The translations under genes and the position numbers were made by a program. This document shows positions 2,505 through 38,837 of a stretch of DNA of 64,000 nt, in pieces. This stretch comes from Rhyzopertha dominica (taxonomy: Eukaryota > Arthropoda > Insecta > Coleoptera > Bostrichidae): positions 18,496,392 through 18,560,391 of the forward strand of contig QCXZ01000003.1 of the NCBI GenBank assembly GCA_025024175.1, written 5' to 3'. The notes under the pieces are model-generated. The model was not told the DNA's origin, ran no database searches, and saw only the letters and a program-made list of their open reading frames with translations. How positions within the stretch are numbered: the first letter of the stretch is position 1; the number at the start of each line of letters is the position of its first letter.

Positions 2505-3576
2505 ATGCTGAGGCGCATGTACTATATATCAAATGTTAAATTCAGTTTTAACTAGTAACCATCTACATTTTTAATTAAGTGGTAGGTAATCATAGCACTT
2601 AATAAATAATAACTAATAACAGCAGCAGCTTAAAAGCTTGCTTTATAAAACACGAAGGTGCTTTATAGTGAAAAATACAACTCAACTTTTTACACATATA
2701 TTATATTTCAGTGTACATCATATAATAAAACATACTACATCCGTAAAAATACTAACATTACAAAAGGCCAATCAACAGGAAATTAAACTCAGCGATAAAC
2801 AGAAACGTAATTATGTATATAACTATATATAGGGTGTAAAAAGTATGGAGACAGTTCGAACAAATCTAGCGAGTATTGAACCAAAACGCTTGGACAGTGG
2901 GGATTCTGTATATTCCACAATCTTTATTTTTTTAATTTTTTTATAATAGGGGAGTTAATAGAGCATTTATTACCCTTCATAATTTTTGAATAGTAGATAG
3001 CAGGTTCTATATATGGGTTATCGTTGTATTCAGTAAGTTTTATTCTATCGATCTATTGAAACAATCGATTAGGCCAAATCTCTCACACAATTCAATAGGT
3101 AAGTTATTCTAATGTTAGGTAAACTCCATAAAAAATAATGAAAACAAGAATTTACCTATACCAGCGTTTTTGTTTAAAACCCACCAATTTTATTTAATAT
3201 TTTGTTTACTATTAACACCGCCGATACTTTGGATGATGCTATACCTATGAAGCTTCTCATACTTTAAATTAGTGCAATACTCGATTTTCAATACATTTGA
3301 TACTTTCGATACCTTTGAATACTTTCAATACTTGAATACCACGAGTCGATGCCGGCTAAGGTAACGATACTTTGAGTAAGTATCGATACTCTGACTTTCG
3401 GTACTTCAGATTATTTTGAATGCTTTCGATACTTCGATACTTTTCAATACATTCGAACTTCGATACTCTTGAATACTTTCGAAACTTCGATACTTTTAAA
3501 CACTTTCGATACTTCGAAACTTTTAAACACTTTCGATACTTTTGAATACTTTCGATACTTCAATACCATGACAATG

Positions 3577-3660
3577 TGGTATCGATACTCGATACCGCCG
3601 AAGGTATCGATACTCGATACCGCCGAAGGTATCGATACTCGATACCGCCGAAGGTATCGA
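3577..3660. repeat. 25-bp tandem repeat, three units
   Basis: GATACCGCCG recurs at 3591, 3616 and 3641, an exact 25-bp period. Each unit contains a self-complementary TATCGATA core, so the array is also rich in small palindromes. It forms the inner part of the right subterminal array of the hAT-like element. Confidence 0.85.
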
Positions 3661-3704
3661 TACTTTAAGTAAGTATCGATACCTTGCCCAGCCCTACTCA
3701 CAAC

Positions 3705-4036: not shown

Positions 4037-4109
4037 GTCATAAGGTAAAATAATTGAGCTACGATACCCGATAACCAAGTCTATACCACGTTGTCTGTGT
4101 CAGAATAAT

Positions 4110-4151
4110 CTGTGAACAGCTGTTTCAGCTTACAAAGCCTCATCAGCACAG
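4110..4151 (-). ncRNA. Hammerhead ribozyme, unit 1
   Basis: Read on the minus strand, in order: stem I strand CUGUG; catalytic box CUGAUGA; stem II GGCUU, loop UGU, AAGCU; GAA; palindromic stem III ACAGCUGU; U; stem I strand CACAG. Stem I is five perfect pairs, and stem II is four Watson-Crick pairs plus a G-U. Every conserved core base is present. Cleavage is expected after the U preceding CACAG, that is between 4115 and 4114. The 8-nt palindromic stem III allows only a two-pair hairpin within one molecule, so dimer formation through stem III is likely, as in other minimal animal hammerheads. Confidence 0.88.
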
Positions 4152-4399
4152 CTATAGTCCCAACGCAAATTTTTATTATGCTTGAAAACTGGGCTATTTG
4201 CAGACACCGTCGTTGTGGACCTCTCTCCGTTTTTAAGCGCCTACTACCTAGTTTACTACCTTTCAGAATACAGGTTCCCCCTAGAGACAGATGAGTGTCA
4301 CCGTTAATTGCCAACAGATGTCATAAGTCATAAGGTAAAATAATTGAGCTACGATACCCGATAACCAAGTCTATACCACGTTGTCTGTGTCAGAATAAT

Positions 4400-4441
4400 C
4401 TGTGAACAGCTGTTTCAGCTTACAAAGCCTCATCAGCACAG
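4400..4441 (-). ncRNA. Hammerhead ribozyme, unit 2
   Basis: Identical to the ribozyme in the first unit, exactly 290 bp further on, with all core bases and all three stems conserved. Two intact copies in tandem are the minimum needed to excise a unit-length RNA from a longer transcript. Confidence 0.88.
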
Positions 4442-4616
4442 CTATAGTCCCAACGCAAATTTTTATTATGCTTGAAAACTGGACTATTTGCAGACACCGT
4501 CGTTGTGGACCTCTCTCCGTTTTTAAGCGCCTACTACCTAGTTTACTACCTTTCAGAATACAGGTTCCCCCTAGAGACAGATGAGTGTCACCGTTAATTG
4601 CCAACAGATGGCACGG

Positions 4617-6113
4617 TGTCGCCCACAACTATTATCCTTACGTTACCCGATGTTCAATTATTTGAGAAATCGTTACAGCCTTTTAATTCTCGTCAAAGCG
4701 AAAGGGTTTCGTCTGCAGTTGATGGCAGTGCAGACCATATAGACATGCTTTTTAATGTATATCGTCTTGGATATTGAAAAACAATAAAGGCAAAACTTTT
4801 ATTATTCAAAATCATAAATAGTAAGACACCGTTACGCTTTAAAAATATTTCATGTAAAAGATAAAAGACGTGATCATATACCCTACAGTGAGCGCACTGG
4901 GAACGAGTCTTATTGAACATAATCTTTCATGGGTCTTTTTTTCACTTACAGGACTTTTAACTTTGTGACTACCTCGTGCGGATATAAAACAAAATGATAT
5001 AAATTATCACGGATATTCTCTCATTGAACAAGTTACTATATAACTACAGGAAATTTGCGGCACTCGTGTTTACCGTTAATGTTAATTCTTCAAACGTACT
5101 GAACGGTCTTTTTGTTGAAGGCCCTAAGCTTTTTGTTACGATATAATAGAATCCCACGTAAGTTTGTGTGGCGCAAAATACGGGATTCGTGGATACGACC
5201 AAATTTACAAAATAAACAGCTGTTGAACGCTGTACCAATATTAATACACGAAACATATTTCACCGCNTTCGGTCTGACGCTGACGGATTCTGATTCAAGC
5301 TAGATTTCATTCGCGAATATCCTCGAAACAAATCCGGAAATGCGCATACAGCTGTTAGCAGATTCACTTATTCAGTGGGTTTTCACAGCCCCACGAGCAA
5401 GTTCTAAAAATCAATGAAATCTGACCCAGTCGGCAAATCTCTGGGATTGACGCACAGTTAATACTTTATATGGTGTTTGAACCTAGATTGAACAACGGGG
5501 TCGAAGGTGTTCTCTCATCAAATACGAAAGTTCGAGGTATCGGCCTGCCAAACGTAATATTTATCATTGGTCTTGGCTAGTGTTGGATACATGAAAACAA
5601 CCGGTGCACAATGATTTATACATTAAGCATCACAAAGTAAATATTTCTTGTTACATATACATCTCAGTATAAAAAAATAAGGCAGGAAGCTGGCAATTGT
5701 TAATTACATTTGCTTCATTTGTGTGTATGTGGAGGTACTCACATTGATGGTTATGAAAGTATAATAACTGACAAACAAATTGGGTACACAATGCCATGCT
5801 AAAACAAAATTGCTCTATTGTCATATACCAGCTAATTATATTAGAGGTATACTTTATATTTTGTTAATATACGAGTAATTTAATTAAACCCACAATGGGC
5901 TACTTGTACAAAAATTTTTATCATGTAAACTTAATCATCGGGTTATAAAGGATTTCTATAAATGATTCATGCATCCAGGGCGTTTATGGATATTATCGAT
6001 TAAATCAATTTGCCGCCTCTCAGGAAAGTGACGCATACTTGTCATCTGTCGATTTTTTAATTATTTGATATATTTTAATGTGAAAAAACGTCTGGGAGTG
6101 TGTATTTTTAACA
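4617..6113. other. No recognisable feature
   Basis: AT-rich interval with one ambiguous base. The short open frames at 4693-4920 and 5044-5303 carry no motif I recognise. Confidence 0.4.
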
Positions 6114-14640: not shown

Positions 14641-14860
14641 ATTGAAATCTTAGTCTTTTGGGGTTAGACCGCGTCTGATTTAGGAATAAGGTCGACGTTT
14701 CGCCCGCACTTGTAAGGGGCATCATCAGGACAGGAATAAGGTGTACGAAATATTGTGCAAAACCGACGCGTCCTGATAATGCCCCTTAAAAGTGCGGGCG
14801 AAACGCCGACCTTATTCCTAAATCAGACGCGGTCTAACCCCAAAAGACTAAGATTTCAAT
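14641..14860. mobile_element. Inverted pair of Penelope-like element ends
   Basis: Arms 14641-14731 and 14772-14860 are near-perfect inverted copies (for example GGGGTTAGACCGCGTCTGAT against its complement) around a 40-bp loop. The sequence CCTGATGATGCCCCTTAC followed by GCGGGCGAAACGTCGACC is typical of the ribozyme-bearing ends of Penelope-like elements. No coding sequence remains between the arms, so this looks like a severely 5'-truncated inverted double insertion. Confidence 0.6.
14691..14731 (-). ncRNA. Hammerhead-like core in PLE end
   Basis: Minus-strand order: GUC; CUGAUGA; one extra U; stem II GCCC...GGGC; GAA; palindrome ACGU; C; GAC. Core boxes and a canonical GUC cleavage triplet are present. 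Stem I is only three pairs, stem III exists only as an intermolecular ACGU palindrome, and an extra U sits between the CUGAUGA box and stem II. The right arm's copy has CUGAUAA (the G8 position changed to A) and ACGC instead of ACGU, so it should be inactive. Ribozyme activity of the left copy is uncertain. Confidence 0.5.
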
Positions 14861-32517: not shown

Positions 32518-32530
32518 TAATAATCTTTAA
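32518..32530. repeat. Target-site duplication, left copy
   Basis: TAATAATCTTTAA stands immediately left of the palindromic PLE insertion and recurs unchanged at its right edge. Confidence 0.75.
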
Positions 32531-32571
32531 TTCTTCAAAAGAAAATATTCTTAATGTGAACTTCCACTTTA

Positions 32572-32614
32572 TTTTTCAATTGCAAAGCGCTTTCGGCTAC
32601 ATGCTAGCCATCGT
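32572..32614 (-). ncRNA. Hammerhead-like core, left PLE arm
   Basis: Mirror image of the motif in the right arm (see 34157-34199), sequence unchanged. On the minus strand it lies between the end of the reading frame and the outer terminus. Confidence 0.5.
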
Positions 32615-32728
32615 CAGTACAAACGTTAAAAGGAAACTAACAGTTTGACAAAGTCAAAAAAAACAGAAACAAGCAAACTTGACTACAAACTGAAATGCAA
32701 CCCACATGCCAGTAACTCAAACGAAACA

Positions 32729-33280
32729 TTAATTTAGATCAAACAAAGAATTTAGAATAGGACAATTGAAATTACAAAAATCATTTAGAATAGTAAAATT
32801 TTGTTCGTTAATAATTTTATAAACCTCTAAAATTTCCAAATAATTTAATTTAGATGATTTAGTACACAAATGTAATGAATTTAGATTGTCTAGCGTGGCA
32901 GTGTGTTTATTTACTAATAAATGGTTAGCTAACGAAGAATTTGTTGTAACAATATCTGTATTTTTATACTTTTCAAATTGTTTCAAATGTTCTTTACCTC
33001 TAGTTAAAAAGGATCTTCCGGTTTGTCCAATATAAACCGAATTGCAATCATTACATGAAAAACTATAAACGCCTGAATTATTTAAAACTGAAATTTGGTC
33101 TTTATTACGGACAAAACGGGAAAACACACTGCCTACGGTAGAAAAAGCAATATTTATTCCATTAGAAGAAAATAATTTAGATAGGCTAACTGAGACTTGA
33201 CCAGCAAACTTAAGAGGAAACCAAACCTTAACTTTTTCATCCAAATAAGTGGTACAGAAAGAAAATTTAAATTTTGTCAA
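32729..33280 (-). CDS. PLE GIY-YIG endonuclease segment, left copy
   Basis: A 183-codon open stretch of the carboxyl end of a Penelope-like polyprotein. It has no ATG at its beginning (first triplet TTG), because the copy is 5'-truncated. It contains GVYSFSCNDCNSVYIGQTGR, the GIY-YIG nuclease core with the CxxC of the PLE zinc-binding insertion, then RGKEHLKQF and SSLANHLLVNKHTA. Compared with the right copy I see only the change EVYKI for EISKI near the end. Without reverse transcriptase it cannot move by itself. Confidence 0.85.
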   Translation of the reverse strand: MTKFKFSFCTTYLDEKVKVWFPLKFAGQVSVSLSKLFSSNGINIAFSTVGSVFSRFVRNKDQISVLNNSGVYSFSCNDCNSVYIGQTGRSFLTRGKEHLKQFEKYKNTDIVTTNSSLANHLLVNKHTATLDNLNSLHLCTKSSKLNYLEILEVYKIINEQNFTILNDFCNFNCPILNSLFDLN

Positions 33281-33351
33281 ATACTTAAAATAAAGTTTTT
33301 CTATTAAACAATGTTATTTCTTATTTTTCTTTACACCCTTATGCACACAAA

Positions 33352-34050
33352 ATGGCTGTTTTTCATTCACTTTTTAATCGACTTTTTAAATTACCTCTGT
33401 CATTAAATGCTTTTGAAAAAGAATTGGGTGTAATACTACAAATTGCTTTCAATAACAATTTTCCTAATTATTTAATAGAAATACTTTATTTTAAGTATTT
33501 GACAAAATTTAAATTTTCTTTCTGTACCACTTATTTGGATGAAAAAGTTAAGGTTTGGTTTCCTCTTAAGTTTGCTGGTCAAGTCTCAGTTAGCCTATCT
33601 AAATTATTTTCTTCTAATGGAATAAATATTGCTTTTTCTACCGTAGGCAGTGTGTTTTCCCGTTTTGTCCGTAATAAAGACCAAATTTCAGTTTTAAATA
33701 ATTCAGGCGTTTATAGTTTTTCATGTAATGATTGCAATTCGGTTTATATTGGACAAACCGGAAGATCCTTTTTAACTAGAGGTAAAGAACATTTGAAACA
33801 ATTTGAAAAGTATAAAAATACAGATATTGTTACAACAAATTCTTCGTTAGCTAACCATTTATTAGTAAATAAACACACTGCCACGCTAGACAATCTAAAT
33901 TCATTACATTTGTGTACTAAATCATCTAAATTAAATTATTTGGAAATTTTAGAGATTTCTAAAATTATTAACGAACAAAATTTTACTATTCTAAATGATT
34001 TTTGTAATTTCAATTGTCCTATTCTAAATTCTTTGTTTGATCTAAATTAA
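33352..34050 (+). CDS. PLE GIY-YIG endonuclease segment, right copy
   Basis: A 232-codon frame beginning with ATG. Residues 1-50 (FNRLFKLPLSLNAFEKELG) match the region between reverse transcriptase and nuclease. GVY is at 119-121, CxxC at 125-128, YIG at 132-134, the catalytic Arg region QTGRSFLTRGKEH at 135-147, and the His-containing SSLANHLLVNKH follows. PLE proteins join an RT to this nuclease, which nicks the target DNA. Here the RT is absent, so the frame is the intact 3' part of a truncated copy. The clean frame in both arms suggests recent insertion. Confidence 0.87.
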   Translation: MAVFHSLFNRLFKLPLSLNAFEKELGVILQIAFNNNFPNYLIEILYFKYLTKFKFSFCTTYLDEKVKVWFPLKFAGQVSVSLSKLFSSNGINIAFSTVGSVFSRFVRNKDQISVLNNSGVYSFSCNDCNSVYIGQTGRSFLTRGKEHLKQFEKYKNTDIVTTNSSLANHLLVNKHTATLDNLNSLHLCTKSSKLNYLEILEISKIINEQNFTILNDFCNFNCPILNSLFDLN

Positions 34051-34156
34051 TGTTTCGTTTGAGTTACTGGCATGTGGGTTGCATTTCAGTTTGTAGTCAA
34101 GTTTGCTTGTTTCTGTTTTTTTTGACTTTGTCAAACTGTTAGTTTCCTTTTAACGT

Positions 34157-34199
34157 TTGTACTGACGATGGCTAGCATGTAGCCGAAAGCGCTTTGCAA
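34157..34199 (+). ncRNA. Hammerhead-like core, right PLE arm
   Basis: Order: UUGUA; CUGACGA; an extra U; stem II GGCU, loop, AGCC; GAA; palindrome AGCGCU; U; UGCAA. Stem I can form five pairs (UUGUA with UGCAA, one G-U). PLE ends are known to carry minimal hammerheads that work as dimers, and the AGCGCU palindrome fits that. The extra U between the CUGANGA box and stem II is a weakness, so activity is not assured. Confidence 0.5.
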
Positions 34200-34294
34200 T
34201 TGAAAAATAAAGTGGAAGTTCACATTAAGAATATTTTCTTTTGAAGAATTAATTAATAACTCCACTTAGAGAATATGGATCAGTTTTCAATAAT

Positions 34295-37833: not shown

Positions 37834-38837
37834 CAGGGACCGCCACCTAAAACTCCCCAGGCTTGTATTTTTATATGTCAAATTGTAGGTCTTTTTAAAC
37901 TCTTTAAAAATACCTTGGTGGGCGGCCAAAAAATTTTTTGCAGATTATCATATTTTGTATTTAAAGTTATTTTTTGTAAATATTTTTTAACCTTACCTCG
38001 TATAATAAATATTGCTTCACAGTTGAATGCCGACTTTTGTCTTCTTCAATTTGTGTCATTACCATGTATGCGTAATTTTTACTCCTTCTTAGTGAAAAAC
38101 AAGAAAAACTAGTCGCCGCCATGTTTTTTAAATAGGGTTGTTCAGAATTTTTAAGTGTTAGTTTAGTAGCTTATTACGGTAAAAATTGTGTCTACATACG
38201 CATCGCTGCACACAAAACCTAATTATTTTAAGTAACTTTTAAATAAATCAAGTACAAAGTTCGTTCTAAAGAGAGAGAGGCTAGGAAATGAAACCCCGTG
38301 ACGAGGGTAGTAGGCGATGTAGAAAACAAAACTAGCCTCATCGCAGGGTTTCGCTTTCTAGCCTCTCTCTCTTTAGAACGAACTTTGTACTTGATTTAGT
38401 TAAAAGTTACTCAAAATTTTGGGGTTTTGTGTGCAGCATTGGGTATGTAGGCATAATTTGTACCATAATAAGCTACTAAACTAACACTTAAAAAATTGTG
38501 AACCGCCCTATAATAGAACATGGCGGCGACTAGTTTTTCTTGTTTTTCACTAAGAAGGAGTAAAAATTACGCATACATGGTAATGACACAAATTGAAGAA
38601 GACAAAAATCGGCATCCAACTATGAAGCGATATTTATTATACGGGGTAAGGTTAAAAAATATTTACAAAAATTAACTTTATTTGCAAAATATCACAATAT
38701 GCAAAAAAACATTTTAGACCCTCACTATGCTATTTTTAAAGAGTTCAAAAAGACCTACAATTTGACATATAACATAAGGTTGCACCTGAAAAAACAAAGA
38801 AAATACGAGCCTGGAGAGTTTTAGGTAGCGGACCCTG
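37834..38837. mobile_element. 1-kb palindromic MITE
   Basis: The ends read CAGGGACCGCCACCTAAAAC and, inverted, CAGGGTCCGCTACCTAAAAC, and the complementarity continues through both halves to a centre near 38310-38330. Shared blocks include AATTTGTGTCATTACCATGT and TAGTCGCCGCCATGTT. The edges are TA-rich, as for Tc1/mariner-type insertion. The 130-codon frame at 37720-38112 runs in from the flank through the left arm and is probably not a gene. Transcription across it would give a long hairpin RNA. Confidence 0.85.

Follow-up and report, generated by a model that had tools for sequence, protein, structure and literature searches.

A dispersed short-repeat family with a type I hammerhead motif in Rhyzopertha dominica and the probable local duplication of one of its copies

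The window analyzed here is a 64,000-nt stretch of Rhyzopertha dominica contig QCXZ01000003.1 (positions 18,496,392 to 18,560,391). It contains two head-to-tail units of 284 bp each (4037–4320 and 4327–4610), assigned to the minus strand, with a period of 290 bp and a 6-nt linker between them (4321–4326, TCATAA on the plus strand; unit 1 with its linker, 4037–4326). The units differ at a single one of 284 positions (4193 G, 4483 A), confirming the near-identical tandem units 290 bp apart reported in a preliminary description of this DNA. The G+C content of the unit was 42%, and its one long open frame had no Pfam match. Folding of the unit RNA (z = +0.4, 66% paired) showed no special stability of a 290-nt circle. 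The search for Pol III boxes and tRNAs gave one weak A-box-like site per unit and no tRNA genes in the window. We also looked for further diverged units in the flanks by 16 whole-flank alignments, one of which was reached by 6 of 300 shuffles and was not accepted; this test overlooked a short piece of module C (see below), which the family model later detected. Elsewhere in this part of the window, a 9-bp motif (AGTATCGAA) and its complement form degenerate arrays at 2134–2351 and 3286–3664, and a 25-bp unit is present in 3.5 perfect copies at 3578–3664.

Each unit carries one predicted type I hammerhead ribozyme of 42 nt on the minus strand (ribozyme 1, 4110–4151; ribozyme 2, 4400–4441), and the two are identical. 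They comprise stem I CUGUG/CACAG, CUGAUGA, stem II GGCUU-UGU-AAGCU, GAA, and ACAGCUGU. The core is full and stems I and II have 5 bp each, the core-closing pair of stem II being G-U. Stem III in ACAGCUGU consists of 2 bp and a palindromic AGCU tetraloop, or of 8 bp when formed between two copies. Cleavage is predicted after U, between 4115 and 4114 and between 4405 and 4404, a spacing of 290 nt. The proposal that each unit has an intact type I hammerhead on the minus strand, with cuts one unit apart, was therefore borne out by the sequence. A strict hammerhead descriptor found no match in 150 simulated windows. A looser one found 26 in 4000, and in two of these both stem I and stem II reached 5 bp or more, like those of the window; a chance origin of the motif was rejected on the basis of this simulated sequence.

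The preliminary description had named the Rfam hammerhead model as a check, and here the outcome was negative: nothing in the window reached the gathering score, the best match of the window ribozyme, to Hammerhead_3, scored 23.5 bits (E = 0.031; cut-off, 48.5). It had also called the hammerheads complete, which holds for the core and stems; for the contact between loops 1 and 2, no canonical partner was seen when the window sequence was judged by eye. With tertiary contacts left out of the fold energies, the predicted single ribozyme fold was 7.2 kcal/mol above its best fold, and the predicted double hammerhead 4 kcal/mol above the best dimer fold. Since the energy gap of the double hammerhead is smaller, a dimeric mode of cleavage is predicted to be likelier than a single-hammerhead mode. 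The literature describes such dimeric action for hammerhead motifs of newts and of Penelope-like elements (PMC6155905 and PMC7761336, in the portions available).

Two further hammerheads lie in an inverted pair of fragments (32527–34252). The plus-strand fragment (33467–34252) has a GIY-YIG-type open reading frame and, in its 3' untranslated part, a minimal hammerhead (34157–34199, plus strand) in which an extra U follows the core. Its twin (32527–33312, minus strand) differs at 4 of 786 positions and has the corresponding minimal hammerhead, also with the extra U (32580–32622, minus strand). The twins are arranged 5'-to-5', and their hammerheads are located ca. 110 nt past the stop codon. The GIY-YIG match (E = 0.0021) is weak and does not reach the Pfam cut-off; we take the fragment to be Penelope-like from this match, the ribozyme, and a known motif of such elements. 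The window also holds part of a BEL/Pao peptidase (E = 2.3e-18) and a weakly matching piece of mariner type; taken by themselves, mobile elements of these types make an insect or other arthropod host probable. In addition, a 906-bp stretch at 37871–38772 is a large palindrome with an 87% match to its own reverse complement. A long hairpin with near-perfect arms at 14677–14824 (Rfam Tombus_IRE, 36.4 bits; cut-off, 45) is probably a small inverted-repeat element; a hammerhead-like match at 14677–14728 was rejected, as it sits in one arm of this hairpin and has no stem I.

To find related sequences, we searched the assembly to which the window belongs (479 Mb, 138 contigs) with the unit as the query. 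With 40 of 755 candidates scored, at least 57 matches were obtained at E ≤ 0.001, two of them the unit pair itself and at least 55 elsewhere. The closest other copy among the matches listed had 80% identity over 209 nt, or 90% over 89 nt. We took 39 regions for profiles (set 1), leaving out L011 because its matches mirror those of L015. A second query, L039, gave at least 129 matches (40 of 1433 candidates scored), from which 30 loci were taken; 10 of these repeated places already in hand and were left out, and the 20 new places formed set 2. The profiles yielded three modules, A (89 positions), B (148 positions), and C (87 positions). Module A carries the ribozyme on its minus strand, and this orientation is written a. 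In the window, profile matches place module A with ribozyme 1 at 4077–4163 and with ribozyme 2 at 4367–4453 (minus strand), and module B at 4173–4322 and 4463–4613 (plus strand). An end piece of module C is present only after unit 2 (4614–4638, minus strand; alignment of 4614–4643). Other tandem copies in the genome, for which the preliminary description had proposed a genome-wide search, were thus found as part of a dispersed family.

Homology breaks off sharply at the module ends, and no wider element was widely common around 38 family loci. These observations bear on whether the units are what remains of the terminal repeats of a Penelope-like element. Such an origin would agree with the presence in the window of a Penelope-like pair that carries hammerheads of its own and with the minimal type I hammerheads of Penelope terminal repeats reviewed in the available text of PMC7761336; the unit ribozyme resembles Penelope-like minimal hammerheads in being type I, in its weak stem III, and in that it may act as a dimer (PMC6155905 and PMC7761336, in the portions available). 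However, the unit ribozyme lacks the extra U, its stem III is longer (2 bp and palindromic), and the unit has no Pfam-recognised frame. A candidate Penelope origin of the unit was rejected, as no sequence was common to the unit and the window's Penelope-like fragment; no link to a reverse transcriptase or GIY-YIG frame was found either. Together with the sharp family edges, these differences make the Penelope-remnant reading extremely unlikely.

The family consensus of the ribozyme was CUGUG-CUGAGGA-GGCUU-UAU-AAGCC-GAA-ACAGCUGU-C|CACAG, which has a full core, five Watson–Crick pairs in each of stems I and II, and a GUC cut site. Among the 46 A modules of set 1, the core was kept in 30, and the core with all 12 pairs in 17. 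In set 2, which has 50 A modules, the core was kept in 26 of the 41 gap-free ones and the core with all pairs in 13. In the ribozyme stems, 92.7% of cells were paired, compared with 17.7–41.5% when the partner was slid, and covariation in the stems did not go beyond that of shuffles. The 17 intact ribozymes of set 1, whose loci were chosen by likeness to an intact unit, exceeded the 9.2 expected under neutral decay, a number reached in 1 of 5000 simulations. In set 2, the 13 intact ribozymes against 9.7 expected were not significant (477 of 5000 simulations). The evidence for selective constraint on the family ribozyme is therefore mixed. On folding, six family monomers (G+C content, 45–48%) gave stability z values of -6.2, -1.95, -1.5, -5.1, -2.8, and -2.35; family monomers are thus predicted to be often, but not always, unusually stable.

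The repeat might instead be a satellite or other repeat with a hammerhead-like motif whose cleavage was lost or never present. The absence of covariation, of an Rfam-level match in the window, and of any match reaching the Rfam cut-off in 20 family loci would be in line with this, as would the favoured competing folds and the core-closing G-U pair of the window copy. On the other hand, the full core, Watson–Crick stems, and cut site of the consensus and the proportions of intact modules in both sets speak for a ribozyme, and we consider a non-cleaving repeat quite unlikely.

Regarding the arrangement of the modules, direct pairs of A modules (a B c a) were read in 17 of 20 distinct loci, a count obtained with a query, L039, that itself has the a B c a form. 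In L054, L061, L067, and L071, two near-intact ribozymes (no more than one mispair in each of stems I and II) are spaced head-to-tail by 328, 330, 323, and 323 nt, respectively. The family's own array unit is therefore 323–330 bp, and its module order is unlike that of the window unit. Many copies carry an additional inverted piece, as in C' b a B c a (L039) and C b A B c (L035), whereas the form of the window, C' b a only, was read in 11 of the 39 loci of set 1, the window counted. L039 aligns to itself in inverted orientation over positions 2–451 with 84% identity. A further unit type of the ribozyme family, with alternating B and a modules and no C, was seen at L021:990–1622.

Inverted modules in so many copies are not predicted by a simple circular-RNA model, and no such mixed arrangement was found described in the available portions of the retrozyme literature. 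They would be expected of a DNA transposon or fold-back element whose terminal repeats would be the arms C'b and Bc, inverted to each other, with the ribozyme motif as a passenger, and the inverted self-alignment of L039 points in the same direction. However, direct arrays with no inversion exist (e.g., L061 and L071), the element end at module A falls outside the inverted arms, and the target-site repeats vary from 10 to 15 bp. We regard this reading as unlikely. More speculatively, the copies may form a retrozyme family with a constant inverted head and variable ribozyme units, C' b a (B c a)n. Paired ribozymes would excise exactly one 323-nt unit as a circle, altering n from RNA to DNA generation, the head C'b would pair with Bc and gate the ribozyme, and the window copy would be the n = 0 form. 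This model is possible but doubtful.

Direct repeats at a score of at least 10 flanked 6 of 39 loci in set 1, compared with 6 of 760 controls, and 2 of 20 loci in set 2, compared with 0 of 400 controls. Since the element edges in the window were set by hand after its repeat had been seen, the set 1 count with the window removed is 5 of 38. The duplications were 10–15 bp long, varying between loci, and at this score they were absent in 33 of 39 and 18 of 20 loci, respectively. At the edges of the 290-bp repeat in the window, no target-site duplication of 5 bp or more was found. A 13-bp repeat with one mismatch is instead located at the family edges, just outside both, and is probably the target-site duplication: the left copy, TACGATACCCGAT, at 4060–4072 and the right copy, TACGTTACCCGAT, at 4639–4651. 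The left copy falls inside the duplicated unit and recurs in unit 2 at 4350–4362. Host flank is likewise included in the unit (4037–4059, copied at 4327–4349), and unit positions 1–33 were covered by none of the at least 55 other matches listed. The module C' end after unit 2 (4614–4638) scored 28, which none of 5000 random window positions reached, and the corresponding place after unit 1 scored 10.

The unmatched positions 1–33, the single C' end, and the 13-bp repeat within the unit point to duplication of one old copy along with its flank as the most likely history. A single insertion would have produced a 13-bp target-site duplication and an element of ca. 276 bp (by arithmetic) with one ribozyme. 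A tandem duplication of 4037–4320 would then have taken along the left flank and target site and ended short of C', so that the window copy would have gained its second ribozyme only through the duplication. Other copies are only 80–90% identical, and the nearest neighbour of the window module A among 46 modules has 85% identity; therefore, judged by sequence identity, the insertion is old and only the duplication is young. The near-identical tandem may also be an assembly error.

The preliminary description had seen in the pair a candidate retrozyme whose near-identical units suggest recent activity. On such a model, both units would have been inserted together, and recently, as the dimeric cDNA of a 290-nt circular RNA. 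The near identity of the units, the identical ribozymes 290 nt apart, and the size and G+C content, which agree with metazoan retrozymes as given in the available text of PMC7229834, would suit such an event. In contrast, flank and a target-site copy lie within the unit, the end module occurs once, positions 1–33 are unmatched at the other places, the best listed copies are 80–90% identical, and the arrays of the family use another unit. The dimeric insertion is therefore strongly disfavoured, and we consider it very improbable. Overall, we consider it probable that the repeat is a copy of a dispersed short-repeat family with a type I hammerhead motif, likely moving as retrozyme-like RNA elements, and that its tandem form in the window most likely arose when DNA was duplicated locally, flanking sequence and a target-site duplication included.

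In such a family, RNA would be transcribed from the minus strand and would cleave itself, probably in a double hammerhead formed via the palindromic ACAGCUGU. Direct arrays would release an RNA of ca. 323 nt, which a host ligase could close to a circle, and insertion might proceed via a Penelope- or LINE-type reverse transcriptase. The window copy, if transcribed, could still yield a 290-nt RNA.

According to the available portions of PMC7229834, metazoan non-LTR retrozymes are non-coding tandem repeats of ca. 170–400 bp, from dimers upwards, with low G+C content and a type I hammerhead whose weak stem III has two pairs and a tetraloop, and they occur species-specifically in insects among other animals; retrozymes co-occur in one genome with Penelope-like elements bearing their own hammerheads, and those of mussels also lack most canonical loop-contact nucleotides. 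Further traits of these retrozymes are a highly self-paired unit RNA, the lack of a primer-binding site or polypurine tract, and accumulation in tissue as linear and circular RNA; of the RNAs folded here, that of the window unit was not highly self-paired, and those of the family monomers were mixed in this respect. The present family resembles them in its type I hammerhead, with core and stems intact by sequence and a weak stem III; its arrays of 323–330 bp with a ribozyme per unit; its G+C content (42% in the window unit and 45–48% in six monomers, against below 45–50%); the lack of a Pfam match in the window unit's long frame, in line with no protein coding; the 10–15 bp target-site duplications in a minority of loci (more than 4 bp, when present, in retrozymes); and the Penelope-like elements with hammerheads in the same genome. 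It differs in its mixture of direct and inverted modules in many copies, in showing by eye no clear loop 1–loop 2 contact, and in that the window tandem is most likely a local duplication. Since PMC7229834, in the portions available, already reports such repeats in insects, the family can be placed within the known retrozyme kind, with which its predicted features fit.

Compared by description only, the family also resembles two other insect systems. Like the pDo500 hammerhead repeat of Dolichopoda cave crickets, for which the available text of PMC2837043 reports that the RNA cleaves itself in vitro and that multimer transcripts are processed in vivo, it is an insect hammerhead repeat family with a proposed double-hammerhead mode; pDo500 is satellite DNA, whereas the copies here are short and dispersed. 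Like the repeat-type hammerheads of Aedes aegypti (PMC3088659, in the portions available), it consists of interspersed repeats in which loop III can pair fully between two copies, with a stem III of 8 bp here and 10 bp in the Aedes dimer model. A word-based literature search matched no named family to the window repeat. Exact pattern searches gave no matches in viral contigs or prokaryote genomes, and no similar DNA was found in plasmids or phages; since animal genomes are few or absent in these collections, the negative results say little.

The window copy illustrates a trap: nearly identical ribozyme units in tandem may stem from nothing more than duplication of the local DNA, and their identity does not by itself indicate recent activity as circular RNA. 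RNA of the hammerhead repeat is predicted, from its sequence, to cut itself and likely to form small circles. The family offers single copies, direct arrays, and inverted composites for comparison, with coordinates in one assembly, and the neighbouring Penelope-like hammerheads make the proposed link between retrozymes and Penelope machinery testable in one genome.
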